Assembly (NCBI GenBank): GCA_003224755.1
Contig: QHZR01000018.1
Span: 1 to 39,066 of the forward strand
Length of the DNA stretch: 39,066 nucleotides
DNA from: Acidobacteriota bacterium
GTDB taxonomy: Bacteria; Acidobacteriota; Terriglobia; Terriglobales; Acidobacteriaceae
Direction: 5' to 3'
How positions within the stretch are numbered: the stretch's first letter is position 1; each line of letters begins with the position of its first letter. Positions 3,770 through 38,623 of this stretch are shown one piece after another. The notes below the pieces were generated by a model. That model saw nothing but the letters and a program-made list of their open reading frames with translations, was not told the origin of the DNA and did not search any database. The translations under genes were made by a program, and so were the position numbers.

Positions 3770-3850
3770 ACCGGCGGGTGCCCTCGCGCGCCCGGCGAAG
3801 CGAAATGTTCGGGCGAGCAAAGCTCGCCCGCCGGGTTGGGGCACCCGCGG
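3770..3850. repeat. GC-rich palindromic intergenic element, copy 2
   Basis: GGGTGCC at the left end pairs with GGCACCC at the right end. Inside, CGGGCGAGC pairs with GCTCGCCCG around a short AAA-type loop. It shares its left arm and inner hairpin with copy 1 at 2869-2985. It lies between the second decayed gene and the convergent outer-membrane protein gene, and could also act as a hairpin between convergent transcripts. Confidence 0.6.
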
Positions 3851-6844: not shown

Positions 6845-6883
6845 GCCGAGCTAATCGACTAAGTTGTCGAGCGCTGCTCGACC

Positions 6884-6904
6884 GGACGGGCGAGGCGCCC
6901 GTCC
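6884..6904. repeat. GC-rich palindrome between der and dinG
   Basis: GGACGGGCG (6884-6892) and CGCCCGTCC (6896-6904) form a perfect 9-bp inverted repeat around AGG, followed by CCACA. Related sequence occurs inside moeA (15258-15277) and, in less symmetrical form, inside gatB (27068-27096). It sits between two divergent starts, so a terminator role is unlikely. Confidence 0.6.
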
Positions 6905-6922
6905 CCACATGGTCTCTGCCAT

Positions 6923-10922: not shown

Positions 10923-10932
10923 GAATTGAGCC

Positions 10933-11007
10933 ATTGAATCATCGGGGATTGAATCATTGACACCTTCCCCAGAGCGATTCAATGATTCAATCGCTCAATG
11001 ATTCAAT
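10933..11007 (+). repeat. octamer repeats with alternative hairpins over the queC start
   Basis: ATTGAATC units occur at 10933-10940 and 10948-10955, and the inverse GATTCAAT at 10976-10983, 10984-10991 and 11000-11007, with CGCTCAAT between. The 13-base arm ATTGAATCATTGA (10948-10960) pairs perfectly with TCAATGATTCAAT at 10979-10991, and equally perfectly with a second copy at 10995-11007. The second copy contains the queC ATG (10998-11000). The two pairings share the 5' arm, so they are mutually exclusive. Confidence 0.75.
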
Positions 11008-11690
11008 CTCACAAAACTCGTGCCATTGTCCTGCTCAGCGGAGGCATGGATTCGTGTGTCTGTGCCACGCTGGCTGCGCGGGATTGCGAACCCGCAGCGT
11101 TGCATATCAGCTACAGCCAGCGCACAGAATCACGTGAGCGGGATTCGTTCCAGCTAATTTGCGACCAGCTTGGCATTCAGGAGCGGCTGATCGTCCGCAA
11201 CGAAGCCTTAAAATTGATTGGCGGTTCGGCCCTGACCGACGAGAGAATTCAAGTGCCTGACTCGCACAGCCTCGGCCGCGACATCCCAGTCACTTACGTG
11301 CCATTTCGCAACGCACACTTCCTGGCCGTAGCCGTGAGTTGGGCAGAAGTGCTTGGCGCATCTAAGATATATATCGGTGCGGTCGAGCAAGATAGTTCGG
11401 GATATCCCGATTGCCGGCCGGCGTACTATGAGGCTTTCAACAAGGTGATTGACGCCGGAACGAAGTCGGGCGGGATCGAGATTGTGACGCCGCTGATTGC
11501 CATGCGTAAATCTGAGATTGTCCGCTTGGGGCTTGATCTCGGCGCTCCGTTCGACTTAACGTGGTCTTGTTACAGCCGCGAAGATCGCGCGTGTGGATTG
11601 TGTGACAGTTGCGTGCTGCGCCTGCGGGCGTTTCGAGAGGCGGGGTCCACCGATCCGCTTCCCTATATTCCAGCGCCGCAGTTGGTATAA
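10998..11690 (+). CDS. queC: 7-cyano-7-deazaguanine synthase QueC
   Basis: QueC uses ATP and ammonia to convert 7-carboxy-7-deazaguanine to preQ0, the shared precursor of queuosine. The PP-loop ATPase motif is LLSGGMDS (residues 12-19). Near the C-terminus a zinc site is visible in WSCYSREDRACGLCDSC. The chain of 230 residues has the normal family length. The first codons (ATG ATT CAA T) are made of the intergenic octamer repeat, and no Shine-Dalgarno sequence precedes the ATG. With queD and queE it completes preQ0 synthesis. Downstream queuosine genes (queF, tgt, queA) are not in this window. Confidence 0.95.
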   Translation: MIQSHKTRAIVLLSGGMDSCVCATLAARDCEPAALHISYSQRTESRERDSFQLICDQLGIQERLIVRNEALKLIGGSALTDERIQVPDSHSLGRDIPVTYVPFRNAHFLAVAVSWAEVLGASKIYIGAVEQDSSGYPDCRPAYYEAFNKVIDAGTKSGGIEIVTPLIAMRKSEIVRLGLDLGAPFDLTWSCYSREDRACGLCDSCVLRLRAFREAGSTDPLPYIPAPQLV

Positions 11691-13204: not shown

Positions 13205-14320
13205 ATGGCTGCTCCAGGCACCGCTTTACATCAAGTCTCGCTCGATCCAATTTCGGCGGACGCTGCAACTGACGATCTGCTCACGGCGATCCTGCGGGCC
13301 AATCCGCGAGTAAGCGATCTGATCTTTTCTCCGGGACGAAAGTTTCAGGTGCAGGTGAGCGGCGAATTCATTCCTCTCGAAACCAGTAGCACATCTTCCC
13401 TGACTGCAGACGATACTCGTCGCATCGCCTCCGATTTAATTGGAAATAACAAGGCGGCAATCAGCATGTTGCGCGAGCAGGGTTATTGCGACATTTCCTA
13501 CGCTCTGCCGGGAGTGGCGCGTTTCAGAGTCAATGTCTTTATCCAACGGGGCAGTTGCGCCGTAGTGATGCGGGTCATCCCAACTTCGATTCCCGACTTC
13601 AAGAGTCTAGGCCTGCCTGAGACGCTGCGCGAAATTGGAAGCTTGCGCGACGGGTTGGTCCTGGTCACTGGGCCGCGAGGGTCGGGCAAATCCTCAACCC
13701 TGGCGGCCATCCTTAACCATATCAATGAGACCGAAACTTGCCACATCATTACGATTGAGGACCCGATCGAGTTTCTCCACAACCACAAACGGGCCACAGT
13801 CCATCAGCGCGAGCTTCACAGCGACACACCTAGCGTTTTGCAAGCTATGCGAGCAGCGCTGCGGCAGGCGCCGAATGTGATCGCGGTCGGAGAGCTGAAA
13901 GACCGGGAGACGATGGAACTCGCGCTGGAGGCCGCGGAAACTGGGCATCTGGTACTTTCGACTTTGAACACGTTGAATGCGCAGCAGACGGTGGAGCGCT
14001 TCGTGGCAGCATTTCCCGCTGCGGAACAGGCAGGCGCCCGTGAGCGCCTTGCACGCATGTTGCGCTACGTGATTTCGCAGCGGCTGGTTCCCCGGTCTGA
14101 AAGCAGCCATCGCATTGCAGTTTTCGAAATACTGAAATCCGGGTCAAAGGTGCTTGATCGCTTGCTCGAAGGAGCAAGCAGTTCTGGCAAAAAGTCCGCA
14201 GGTCTCGACGAGGAAATCGAAAAGCTGGTGCGGGCCGGAATGGTTACACCAGAAATTGCGCTGGCCCATGCGATTGATCCGCGCGAGCTGGCGAAAAAAC
14301 TGGCTGCGGCCGAGAAGTAG
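13205..14320 (+). CDS. PilT-like type IV pilus ATPase paralogue
   Basis: This 371-residue hexameric secretion/pilus-retraction type ATPase has a PAS-like N-terminal domain (about 20-125) and a RecA core. Walker A is GPRGSGKSS (156-164), where PilT usually has GPTGSGKS. The Asp box is IITIEDPIEFLH (181-192). Walker B is VIAVGELKD (225-233; VGEMRD in PilT). The His box reads GHLVLSTLNT, with Asn255 where PilT and PilU have His. The C-terminal AIRNLIRE motif typical of PilT is not recognisable; EEIEKLVRAGMVTPEIAL is at that place. It lies 45 bases upstream of moeA with no other pilus gene nearby. It is a divergent family member and may not be a working retraction motor. Confidence 0.85.
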   Translation: MAAPGTALHQVSLDPISADAATDDLLTAILRANPRVSDLIFSPGRKFQVQVSGEFIPLETSSTSSLTADDTRRIASDLIGNNKAAISMLREQGYCDISYALPGVARFRVNVFIQRGSCAVVMRVIPTSIPDFKSLGLPETLREIGSLRDGLVLVTGPRGSGKSSTLAAILNHINETETCHIITIEDPIEFLHNHKRATVHQRELHSDTPSVLQAMRAALRQAPNVIAVGELKDRETMELALEAAETGHLVLSTLNTLNAQQTVERFVAAFPAAEQAGARERLARMLRYVISQRLVPRSESSHRIAVFEILKSGSKVLDRLLEGASSSGKKSAGLDEEIEKLVRAGMVTPEIALAHAIDPRELAKKLAAAEK

Positions 14321-14365
14321 TTTCCTCGGTTGGCTTTTCTCTTTCTTCCCACCTATGATTTCTCC

Positions 14366-15634
14366 ATGGTGGTGTCCGCCCAGCAGTCGAGTGTCCTTAG
14401 CTTTGAACAAGCGCGGCATCTGGTGGAGGACCATGCCTTGCAACTGCGCCCGCGTGGGCGCGAGTTGTTAGGTCTGCTCGATGCGGCAGGCCGAATCCTT
14501 GCCGAACCGATACATGCCGACCGGGACTTCCCTCCATTTCGCCGCGCGGCGCGCGATGGATTTGCTGTGCGGTCCGCCGACGTTCAGAATCTTCCTGCCA
14601 CGCTCGAGGTGGTCGGAGAAATCAGGGCTGGCTCAGCGCACATTCCTGAACTGTCGCCCGGACAGGTCGTCAGCATCATGACCGGGGCTGCCGCTCCAGA
14701 CGGCGCAGATGCCATTGTGATGGTGGAATATACGTCGCGGACCGGCAACTGTGTTCAAATCACGAAGGCTGTTTCTGCGGGAGAAAATATTGTCCCAGCC
14801 GGATCGGAGGCAAGGAGCAGAGACAAACTGCTCGAAGCCGGAACCAGCCTCGGCTATGCAGAAATCGCGGTTGCGGCTTCGGTGGGCCGTTCCCGCCTGC
14901 TGGTCCATTCCAAGCCACGAGTTGCCGTGCTCTCTACCGGCGACGAAGTGGTTGATGTGGACGTGCCGCCCGGACCAAACCAGATCCGCAACTCCAACAG
15001 CTATTCTTTGGCAACTCAGATCCAGGCAGCAGGCGGAGACCCGGTCATACTGCCCATTGCTCCCGACGAACCTGCGCGCTTGCGCGAATTGCTGGCGGAG
15101 GGACTCGATGCGGACTTGCTGCTGATCGCGGGCGGCGTTTCCATGGGGAAGTACGATCTAGTCGAGCAAACCCTCGCCGAGTTGGAAGCGGAGTTCTTCT
15201 TCACCGGAGCGTCGATTCAGCCAGGGAAACCGATTGTCTTCGGGCGCGTGCCGCTTTCGCGGGCGGGGGCGCCCGCGCCACACGCTCCAGCTAGGCAGAA
15301 GTACTTCTTTGGCCTACCCGGCAACCCCATTTCCACGATGGTGACATTCGAGCTCTTTGCCCGGCCTCTGATCGAAGCCCTGGCAGGCACAATGCCACGC
15401 AAGCTGGCCTTTGTCTATTCGAAATTGAAGAGTGCGATCAAGACGAAGACCGGTCTAAAGAGATTCTTGCCTGCGATCATCTCGGGCGAATTCGAGCAGT
15501 CCGATGTGGAGCTAGTCCGATGGCAAGGTTCGGGCGACGTTTCCGCCGCCGCGCGCGCCAACTGTTTTGTGGTCGTGCCGCCCGATCGCGAACGGATCGA
15601 AGCGGGAGAGTGGGTTCCCGTGCTGCTAAGATGA
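14366..15634 (+). CDS. moeA: molybdopterin molybdotransferase MoeA
   Basis: MoeA inserts molybdate into adenylylated molybdopterin, the last step of molybdenum-cofactor synthesis. I start it at ATG 14366 (MVVSAQQSSVLSFEQA), giving 422 residues; an ATG-less extension upstream adds an unconvincing hydrophobic leader. Domains follow the family: DRDFPPFRRAARDGFAVRS, SIMTGAAAPDGADAIVMVE, then the MoaB-like domain VAVLSTGDEVVD, QIRNSNSYSL, GGVSMGKYD and FGLPGNPIST. Between VFGRV and KYFFGLPGN there is an insertion of about 15 residues (near 296-311), encoded by a perfect GC palindrome not expected in this family. It is followed by moaC after 61 bases. Confidence 0.95.
   Translation: MVVSAQQSSVLSFEQARHLVEDHALQLRPRGRELLGLLDAAGRILAEPIHADRDFPPFRRAARDGFAVRSADVQNLPATLEVVGEIRAGSAHIPELSPGQVVSIMTGAAAPDGADAIVMVEYTSRTGNCVQITKAVSAGENIVPAGSEARSRDKLLEAGTSLGYAEIAVAASVGRSRLLVHSKPRVAVLSTGDEVVDVDVPPGPNQIRNSNSYSLATQIQAAGGDPVILPIAPDEPARLRELLAEGLDADLLLIAGGVSMGKYDLVEQTLAELEAEFFFTGASIQPGKPIVFGRVPLSRAGAPAPHAPARQKYFFGLPGNPISTMVTFELFARPLIEALAGTMPRKLAFVYSKLKSAIKTKTGLKRFLPAIISGEFEQSDVELVRWQGSGDVSAAARANCFVVVPPDRERIEAGEWVPVLLR
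15258..15277. repeat. GC palindrome inside moeA
   Basis: CGCGGGCG (15258-15265) and CGCCCGCG (15270-15277) are a perfect 8-bp inverted repeat around GGGG, followed by CCACAC. It is translated in frame as part of the insertion SRAGAPAPHAPA. Its core and its trailing CCACA match the palindrome between der and dinG (6884-6909). Confidence 0.65.
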
Positions 15635-15641
15635 AAACGCG

Positions 15642-15662
15642 GCTCTTGGCCCTTGGCACTCG
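15642..15662 (+). repeat. short degenerate heptamer run before moaC
   Basis: CTCTTGG, CCCTTGG and CACTCGC stand head to tail between moeA and moaC. The match between units is loose, so this may be a worn member of the heptamer class seen at 6155, 16292 and 25989. Confidence 0.3.
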
Positions 15663-15695
15663 CTACACTCTTGAAGCCGAATTCCTGAGGGCTTG

Positions 15696-16178
15696 ATGGC
15701 AAAGCGATTGAGTACAAAACTCTCCCATTACGACAACTCGGGCCGCGCTCGCATGGTGGACATTTCCGCGAAGCCTGCAAACGCACGCGAGGCGCAGGCG
15801 AGCGCATTTGTGGCGATGGCACCGGCAGTGCTCAATGCACTCGCTACGAATCCGAAAGGGGACCCTTTTGAGGTTGCGCGTCTTGCTGGAATTATGGCAG
15901 CTAAGAAGACTGCCGATTTGATTCCCCTTTGCCATCCCGTACCGCTTTCGCACGTTGATGTTGAACTAAGGCAATGCGAGAATGGAATTGCGATCTCCTC
16001 CCACGCAAAGACCACGGCTGAAACTGGCGTTGAGATGGAAGCCCTGGTTGCAGCGAGCGTTGCCGCGCTTACTGTGTATGACATGTGCAAGGCGCTCGAT
16101 AAAGGAATTGAGATTCGCGAGATTGTGCTGGAGCGGAAATCTGGTGGGAAAAGCGGCGACTATATTCGTAAGAAGTAG
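15696..16178 (+). CDS. moaC: cyclic pyranopterin monophosphate synthase MoaC
   Basis: MoaC acts with MoaA to build cyclic pyranopterin monophosphate from GTP, the first stage of molybdenum-cofactor synthesis. The ATG at 15696 follows GAGGGC; a TTG one codon earlier is also possible. The protein of 160 residues shows LSHYDNSGRARMVDIS at the start, the signature LCHPVPLSHVDVEL, and TGVEMEALVAASVAALTVYD near the catalytic face, followed by KALDKGIEI and a C-terminal KSGGKSGDY. All match the family well. MoaA is not in this window. It lies between moeA and the receiver-PATAN gene. Confidence 0.95.
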   Translation: MAKRLSTKLSHYDNSGRARMVDISAKPANAREAQASAFVAMAPAVLNALATNPKGDPFEVARLAGIMAAKKTADLIPLCHPVPLSHVDVELRQCENGIAISSHAKTTAETGVEMEALVAASVAALTVYDMCKALDKGIEIREIVLERKSGGKSGDYIRKK

Positions 16179-17097: not shown

Positions 17098-17581
17098 GAC
17101 CTTTCGCGCTGCAGTCCTTACTGTCAGCGACTCGTGCGCGCGCGGCGAACGCAACGATCTTTCCGGTCCGGCAGTTGCCAGCTCGCTGCAGGAGCATCAT
17201 TTCTCGATCGTGGAAACGCGAGTCGTGGCCGACGACCACGCCGCGATCCAAAAGGCCATAGTCGAACTGGCGCGGAGAGCGCGCCTGGTTGTAACAACCG
17301 GCGGAACCGGAATTTCGGCTCGCGACGTTACGCCCGAGGCTACGCGTAGCGTTTGCGGCAGAATGCTGGACGGAGTTTCCGAACGCATGCGGCGCGAAGG
17401 CGAAAAGAAAACTCTATTTGCTGTTCTGAGCCGCGGACTGTGTGGCGTGTGCGGAACATCTGTCGTTCTGAATCTGCCAGGTAGTCCTGCTGGCGCGGTC
17501 GAATCTCTTCAGGCGGTCATTGATGTGTTGCCGCACGCGATCCAATTGCTCGCGGGAAGAACCGAGCACATGACCAACTGA
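17078..17581 (+). CDS. mogA: molybdopterin adenylyltransferase MogA/MoaB
   Basis: This enzyme adenylylates molybdopterin, producing the substrate of MoeA. The start at ATG 17078 is supported by the GAGGAGGAAGAGG run just upstream and by FRAAVLTVSDSCARGERND matching the usual N-terminus. Key segments are LVVTTGGTGISARDVTPEAT, with the GGTG pterin-binding loop and the following Asp, then LSRGLCGVCGTSVVLNLPGSPAGAVE. It has 167 residues, typical for MoaB/MogA. It overlaps the response-regulator gene by 20 bases, which implies co-transcription and probable translational coupling. MogA and MoaB cannot be told apart with certainty from sequence alone. Confidence 0.93.
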   Translation: MSSSIPETFRAAVLTVSDSCARGERNDLSGPAVASSLQEHHFSIVETRVVADDHAAIQKAIVELARRARLVVTTGGTGISARDVTPEATRSVCGRMLDGVSERMRREGEKKTLFAVLSRGLCGVCGTSVVLNLPGSPAGAVESLQAVIDVLPHAIQLLAGRTEHMTN

Positions 17582-17583
17582 TG

Positions 17584-17698
17584 AATTGAATCATTGAGCG
17601 ATTGAATCATTGAAACACTTTGATACGGTAATCGCGGAGACAATCTACGGCGCGGGACGTTTAATCGACCGATGATTCAATGACTCAACGATTCAATT
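17584..17698 (+). repeat. large inverted repeat of octamer units after mogA
   Basis: Arms at 17584-17610 and 17672-17698 match at 24 of 27 positions as an inverted repeat, with a loop of 61 bases. The left arm is made of ATTGAATC, ATTGAGCG, ATTGAATC and the right arm of GATTCAAT, GACTCAAC, GATTCAAT. It begins three bases after the mogA stop codon. It shares its unit with the queE-queC element at 10933-11007. Confidence 0.75.
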
Positions 17699-17729
17699 TC
17701 CTCTCCGTCATCCGTGATGAAATAGACCC

Positions 17730-38008: not shown

Positions 38009-38623
38009 ATGTGCAAATCTGTGCTGCGGGTCAGTGATGGTACTGTGCTCGGCACCTTTGCCGCGGGACAAAGGCCAAATGGCGTGGCCTTTGACGGTAC
38101 CAATATCTGGGTCACAAATTTGCCGTCCAGTGTGAGCAAGCTGCGGGCCAGTGATGGCGCCATGCTCGGCACCTTCAGCGTGGGCCTATATCCAACCCAT
38201 ATTGCCTTTGACGGGCGCAATCTTTGGGTGACCAATACCAGCGTTAACACTGTGACAAAACTCCGGGCTAGTGACGGCGCTGTACTTGGAACTTTTACAG
38301 TGGGAGCAAACCCCAGAGGAATCGCTTTCGACGGGGAAAATGTCTGGATCGCGAGCTCCGGCAATAACACAGTGACTGAGCTGAGAGGGGCTGATGGCGC
38401 AATCCTTGGCACTTTCACCGTGGGACTGACTCCTTCAGGCGTGGTTTTTGACGGTGCAAAAATCTGGGTCGTGAATTTCGGGAGCAGCGACGTCATCAAA
38501 CTATCCAGAAAGGGCGTTCAGCTTGGAGTGTTCAACGTAGGATCTGGCCCTGAAGAGTGCGCCTTCGATGGAACCAGTATTTGGGTAGCGAACACGAACG
38601 CCGGCACGCTCTCTAAGCTGTAG
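38009..38623 (+). CDS. truncated beta-propeller repeat protein
   Basis: The protein of 204 residues consists of about five near-identical repeats of 40-42 residues, each with the pattern LRASDGAVLGTFTVG, NPRGIAFDG, and NVWVTNxxxNTVTK. These are YVTN/NHL-like propeller blades. There is no signal peptide and no room for a full ring of six to eight blades. The ATG at 38009 has no ribosome-binding site, and the frame is closed upstream by TGA at 37988. It is most likely the C-terminal part of a larger extracellular propeller whose 5' end was lost. It is divergent from the iorA-type gene, 85 bases away. Confidence 0.65.
   Translation: MCKSVLRVSDGTVLGTFAAGQRPNGVAFDGTNIWVTNLPSSVSKLRASDGAMLGTFSVGLYPTHIAFDGRNLWVTNTSVNTVTKLRASDGAVLGTFTVGANPRGIAFDGENVWIASSGNNTVTELRGADGAILGTFTVGLTPSGVVFDGAKIWVVNFGSSDVIKLSRKGVQLGVFNVGSGPEECAFDGTSIWVANTNAGTLSKL

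Follow-up and report, generated by a model that had tools for sequence, protein, structure and literature searches.

GTGG-tagged REP elements in frame in one loop of MoeA in Terriglobales-type Acidobacteria

Introduction

Rickettsia palindromic elements were reportedly described by Ogata et al. Closer to the locus studied here are the GTAG-tagged REPs of Di Nocera et al. (2013; PMC3733652), which, in the accessible portion of that paper, share with it a short palindrome, a GTRG end tag, many copies and inverted doublets, as well as in-frame copies in enzymes (uvrA, uvrD, tRNA synthetases and recBCD). The same portion describes in-frame REPs inside genes in several phyla, GTAG-20 of Opitutus terrae, in which the tag is mutated to GTGG in most copies, and different REPs at about the same site in recB of two Xanthomonas species (PMC3733652). 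RAYT transposases are considered to mobilise REPs (accessible parts of PMC3733652 and PMC8266576), and REP numbers have been tabulated for Granulicella aggregans and others (accessible part of PMC12306157). Here, we analyse a palindrome inside moeA of an acidobacterial contig. We refer to the whole 39,066-nucleotide stretch of DNA that was analysed as the window.

Results

The element in moeA

The features of the window on which the analysis draws are:

14366..15634, plus strand: moeA (molybdopterin molybdenumtransferase), an intact 422-residue frame with MoeA_N, MoCF_biosynth and MoeA_C domains (Pfam; same gene as locus L191)
15254..15295, plus strand: segment coding about 14 residues extra relative to E. 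coli MoeA, about residues 297-310, the exact ends depending on the alignment
15254..15285, minus strand: GTGG-tagged REP element, full model match 1-32, 46.8 bits
15258..15277, no strand assigned: REP stem of a perfect 8 bp with a 4-base loop, read directly
15278..15283, minus strand: GTGTGG tag (CCACAC on the plus strand), read directly
6880..6912, minus strand: REP of a sister subfamily (TGTGGGGACGGGCGCCTCGCCCGTCC), from the covariance model and the sister pattern

The original prediction had placed a perfect 8-bp inverted repeat within moeA between 15250 and 15300, and it is present exactly, followed by CCACAC. The plus strand reads CGCGGGCG (15258-15265), GGGG (15266-15269), CGCCCGCG (15270-15277) and CCACAC (15278-15283), and the minus strand GTGTGG-CGCGGGCG-CCCC-CGCCCGCG-AA. 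The element is a single copy rather than a doublet, contains no stop in any of the six frames and is read through in the moeA frame as VFGRVP-LSRAGAPAPHAPARQ-KYFFGLPGN. Pfam domains, PDB sequence matches and fold matches all agree on the identity of MoeA; the nearest named MoeA is that of Candidatus Acidiferrum typicum, followed by those of other Acidobacteria/Terriglobia MAGs, which suggests a Terriglobales-type acidobacterium as the host. The assembly that holds the window comprises 628 contigs.

The blocks flanking the segment had been described as almost adjacent in E. coli, with about 15 residues extra in the window, and a phmmer comparison with E. coli MoeA chains bore this out with a 14-residue gap between FGKLS and NSWFCGLPGN. 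An AlphaFold2 model of the window MoeA (mean pLDDT 91.9), which matches solved MoeA and gephyrin E folds, places the insert between two predicted strands (residues 291-296 and 311-317), with an average pLDDT of 64 over residues 301-310. The insert is predicted to form a hairpin loop between these two strands.

The repeat family

A stem pattern, GGGCGNNNNCGCCC, occurred at 92 places in the window's genome as compared with 17 for its reversed control. Several other places found with this stem-only pattern read the same as the moeA element, with the same CCACA side, and it was in such copies that the GTGG tag was first noticed. The strict pattern TGTGGNGCGGRCRNNCNNGYCCGC, which matches the moeA site at 15259-15282 on the minus strand, gave 42 copies in the window's genome and none with the reversed control; the same DNA, proposed to lie elsewhere in this genome, was thus found when sought. 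The strict pattern was present in 21 of the 61 genomes searched, all 21 belonging to one family (f1), and in 0 of 24 genomes outside that family.

A covariance model, built from 36 aligned non-moeA copies with the moeA copies left out, scored the moeA site at 46.8 bits (E 2.1e-6). A chance palindrome is ruled out by the reversed controls and this E-value. Three of the eight stem pairs covary within the 36 copies, among them the pair at the stem base (C-G, G-C, A-U), which the search pattern had left free; TGTGG beside the stem is common to all 36, the search pattern having fixed that tag. Stem covariation was also seen within 33 moeA copies alone, a set from which the long copies and that of L058, which aligned oddly, were left out. 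The hairpin itself is of unremarkable stability for such GC-rich DNA (z -1.1 and -1.3 for the two strands), and the evidence therefore lies in the repeat family rather than in the fold. Rfam gave no match within 14300-15700. The moeA segment is confirmed as a GTGG-tagged REP, of the class with a stem of 6-9 bp, a tag at one end and many copies; its CCCC-loop variant accounts for only three of the 42 REP copies in the window's genome.

The palindrome at 6884, to which the moeA element had been likened, is a related REP, but it belongs to a sister subfamily and is not the same element: the covariance model gave it 20.5 bits (E 0.051), and the sister pattern TGTGGGGACGGGCG..CGCCCGTCC found nine copies including 6884, with none in the control. 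The window holds other repeats as well, namely another palindromic repeat, of GGGCGAGCAAGGCTCGCC type, at 2913-2937 and 3811-3835, a similar motif adjoining a REP in locus L005; AT-rich ATTGAATCATTGA-type repeats in direct and inverted copies at 10925-11010 and 17577-17700; and four imperfect 97-nt repeats at 38023-38476, spaced 117-120 bp.

Occupancy of the MoeA loop in relatives

The covariance model was searched over 130 moeA loci at a lenient cut-off (E up to 1). The loop was first recognised in 112 loci, representing 92 distinct genes, and 18 more short-loop loci brought the distinct genes to 110. In the 92 genes, 36 of 45 REP matches fell in the loop, two elsewhere in the open frame and seven outside; the loop made up 7,731 bases (7.7 kb) of the 446 kb covered, with 319 kb outside. 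By our own arithmetic, matches are about two hundred times denser in the loop than elsewhere, a concentration that does not stand for 36 independent events, because the matches share ancestry. A cut-off of E 0.01 left 33 matches, 27 of them in the loop, in 24 genes, and six outside. The 18 short-loop loci yielded one weak match (L140, E 1), away from a recognised loop.

A REP lies in the loop of 29 of the 110 distinct MoeA genes, in sense in 16, in antisense in six and in both orientations in seven; the alignment of relatives that had been suggested thus finds the insertion in only some of them. The loop is occupied by a single element in either orientation or by an inverted doublet, with differing stem variants. 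We did not find the loop filled with unrelated DNA throughout the phylum, the situation expected of an ordinary loop; what does hold on that side is that loop length varies from 16 to 64 residues across relatives, and that several long loops contain no recognised REP. The REP-coded peptides vary (RAGAPAPH, CGADTLVRE, doublets), and 35 of 81 MoeA without a REP have a short 16-residue loop.

In a MoeA tree built without the loop, all 29 REP-bearing MoeA fall within one well supported 56-row clade, several members of which have a bare 16-residue loop. Presence and absence require at least nine changes on this tree, starred branches forcing six; for four states (orientation, single or doublet) the minimum is 16; since losses are counted too, these changes do not equal numbers of insertions. 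The loop of the window's sister (L017) is shorter and holds no recognised REP, and the next relative (L071) carries a REP in the opposite orientation to the window's. By eye, all sense copies share one reading phase and many begin directly after CG, an arrangement that would also fit one ancient insertion. We found no filled/empty moeA pair of very close strains; the nearest relatives share only 75-77% protein identity, and no single insertion event was therefore caught.

The window element is identical at 25 of 25 positions to those of L071, L043 and L024, while third codon positions of these genes agree at 0.43, 0.46 and 0.39, respectively. Averaged over 378 pairs of REP-bearing genes, the best REP identity is 0.80, as compared with gene-wide and third-position identities of 0.66 and 0.43, an excess that arises partly by construction, since matches were picked by REP likeness. 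Full identity despite about 40% third-position agreement indicates that these REPs were refreshed or selected as DNA. The window and L071 elements, both of the CCCC-loop variant, lie in opposite orientations, each directly after the same CCG codon. We tentatively raise the possibility, doubtful as it is, that the MoeA loop acts as a docking site where a coding REP already in residence is swapped for another or inverted on the spot; if so, the DNA of REPs would be rewritten within a housekeeping gene without loss of the frame.

The moeA loop of one relative (G079) holds a second palindrome, CACGGCTTNAGCCGTG, itself repeated, with five matches in that genome, 39 in G191, 15 in G034 and three in the window's genome, and none in the control. 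The GTGG REP is therefore not the sole repeat in the MoeA loop. By eye, some further MoeA loops look repeat-derived too, and in those of L068 and L095 another repeat (TTCGAC..CTCAGGGCAGG or its reverse) seems to interrupt the REP hairpin, as in a nested insertion that still keeps the frame.

Copies in other genes

We examined 72 REP copies, comprising 42 of 42 from one relative (G034) and 30 of 42 from the window's genome. When each copy was judged by the longest open frame of at least 150 residues covering it, 36 of the 72 lay inside by 30 codons or more and 36 did not. Pfam was run on 30 of the 36 frames, those of L158, L175 and L180 not being among them. Over the two genomes, 19 of the 72 copies lie within a domain, or are flanked on both sides by domains of the same open frame. 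Ten of the frames run through Pfam gave no family match (seven) or a match only away from the REP (three), and their copies are therefore not counted as genic. Gene names, assigned from the domains by our own reading, are leucyl-tRNA synthetase, PurL, MoeA, PcrA/UvrD, ThiE, ribonucleotide reductase, an acyltransferase (weak match), LpxI and a UvrD-like helicase for the nine genic copies among the 30 of the window's genome, and the MetH activation domain, a SIS/CBS protein, MnmE, ValS, hydantoinase B, a metallo-beta-lactamase fold protein, RNase R, TrmFO/GidA, MoeA and PcrA for the ten among the 42 of G034. For MnmE and TrmFO, one of two matched stretches was available and we infer the bracketing of the REP; the G034 MoeA was counted on separate evidence.

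The C-terminal linker of pcrA is a second shared REP site, with REP matches in six of 29 loci in which the frame was found (five by script, L266 by eye). In L258-L266, which are pcrA/uvrD homologues, the site lies before RPGQKV. Second matches in the linker occur in G000 (weak, E 0.5) and G002, and a weaker REP at PcrA residue 538 is common to G002 (E 0.02) and G016 (E 0.3).

Doublets and candidate movers

Inverted REP doublets occur in seven moeA genes and in some genomes. Five of nine doublets fetched from one genome (G191) are 49-50 bp apart, and six of the seven in moeA are spaced 48. In the G191 doublets L244-L248, this nearly constant spacing of 49-50 bp goes together with seemingly unrelated spacer sequences. 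A spacer shared by moeA and genomic doublets was considered and rejected, as the moeA-spacer pattern gave one match each in two of five genomes and hence no family.

Matches to Y1_Tnp numbered five in the window's genome, and 30 of 85 from 12 relatives were examined with their flanks; among these 35 loci, no Y1 transposase gene was flanked by an exact moeA-type REP within the fetched flanks. A broken gene of the window's genome (L049), interrupted by an internal TAG, has inverted GTGG-tagged hairpins with a different stem on its two sides, one locus of G029 (L236) is followed by a GTGG-tagged inverted pair, and L219 has a sister-type hairpin about 1 kb away. The hairpins at L049 and L236 therefore point to a GTGG-RAYT link in the REP-bearing bacterial family. 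Either a Y1/RAYT-type transposase or conversion between copies may have moved the REPs, and we treat the two as equal candidates. Two other Y1 transposase genes (L046, L047) are flanked by inverted CCCAGCGC hairpins, perhaps, going by description alone, of the terminal-repeat type reported for Acidobacteria in the accessible portion of PMC3733652.

Discussion

We take the moeA segment, with a probability of about 80%, to be a mobile-type GTGG-tagged REP lying in frame in a permissive hairpin loop, a long-lived tolerated site. REPs of its family would spread around the genome, and copies of frame-keeping length that land in loops or linkers of conserved enzymes could survive as short extra peptides, since the moeA copy is free of stops in all six frames. 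Within the family, the MoeA loop would have been occupied, lost, re-occupied or swapped, MoeA apparently tolerating rather than needing its REP.

A single ancient insertion made before the 56-gene clade diversified, handed down vertically with the hairpin under DNA or mRNA selection and with compensatory stem changes, would explain why 29 of 29 REP-bearing MoeA sit in that well supported clade, why sense copies share a phase and often a junction (by eye) and why stem pairs covary within moeA. It sits poorly with the at least 16 changes needed for orientation and single or doublet state, the bare 16-residue loop in several clade members, the identical 25-mers in genes near saturation at third positions and the 19 of 72 copies in quite different genes, and we consider it unlikely. 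Differences among the peptides (RAGAPAPH, CGADTLVRE, doublets) and the short 16-residue form of 35 of 81 non-REP loops make it highly improbable that the peptide was domesticated, that is, that the loop serves MoeA and is kept by protein selection, even though the genes seen preserve the frame and the insert is predicted to be a hairpin loop. Lastly, an ordinary length-variable, GC-rich loop might resemble a REP by chance, and loop lengths of 16 to 64 residues, several long loops without a recognised REP and the usual stability of the hairpin would be in keeping with this; the model E-value, the 0 control matches and the concentration of matches in the loop contradict it, leaving it next to no credence.

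If the reading as a mobile-type REP is correct, conserved enzymes encoded by many genes of a major soil group gain peptides from a mobile hairpin. The recurrence of such elements in a single loop across many genera, either way round, would then provide natural replicates for studying how they move and under which conditions an added peptide does no harm, is lost or acquires a use. The reading would also call for caution, as some acidobacterial protein loop insertions may be REP-coded rather than functional.

The Rickettsia elements share with the present ones palindromic repeats in frame inside metabolic genes, but at about 150 bp they are set apart, by description, from GTGG hairpins of about 27-32 nt (accessible part of PMC10969869). 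The original prediction had cited them as a precedent and knew of none described for this DNA; in-frame palindromes are indeed known, but the element is a GTGG-tagged REP, and in-frame REPs are on record in several phyla in the accessible text of PMC3733652. REPINs (Bertels and Rainey 2011, PMC3116915) likewise form inverted doublets with a less conserved spacer; according to the accessible part of that report they differ in being extragenic in distribution and RAYT-linked, whereas the window copy is single and no RAYT tied to the REP was found among the loci examined. In the same phylum, the class 3 Y1 elements of Solibacter usitatus, with about 600 hairpins, also combine high-copy hairpins with Y1 transposases (accessible part of PMC6006769). 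For Acidobacteria, the accessible portion of PMC3733652 reports tyrosine transposases with terminal inverted repeats and does not mention intragenic REPs, and in the open-licence literature we found no description of in-frame, protein-coding REPs in this phylum. In-frame REPs as such, and hairpin repeats in Acidobacteria, are already in print. In the GTAG-tagged REPs, as far as the accessible portion of PMC3733652 goes, the stem differs from that of the moeA-type REP; here, unlike there, one loop is repeatedly occupied across genera and in both orientations. Our analysis adds to these systems a frequently protein-coding REP family of Terriglobales-type genomes, and a single MoeA loop that such elements have repeatedly occupied in either orientation.
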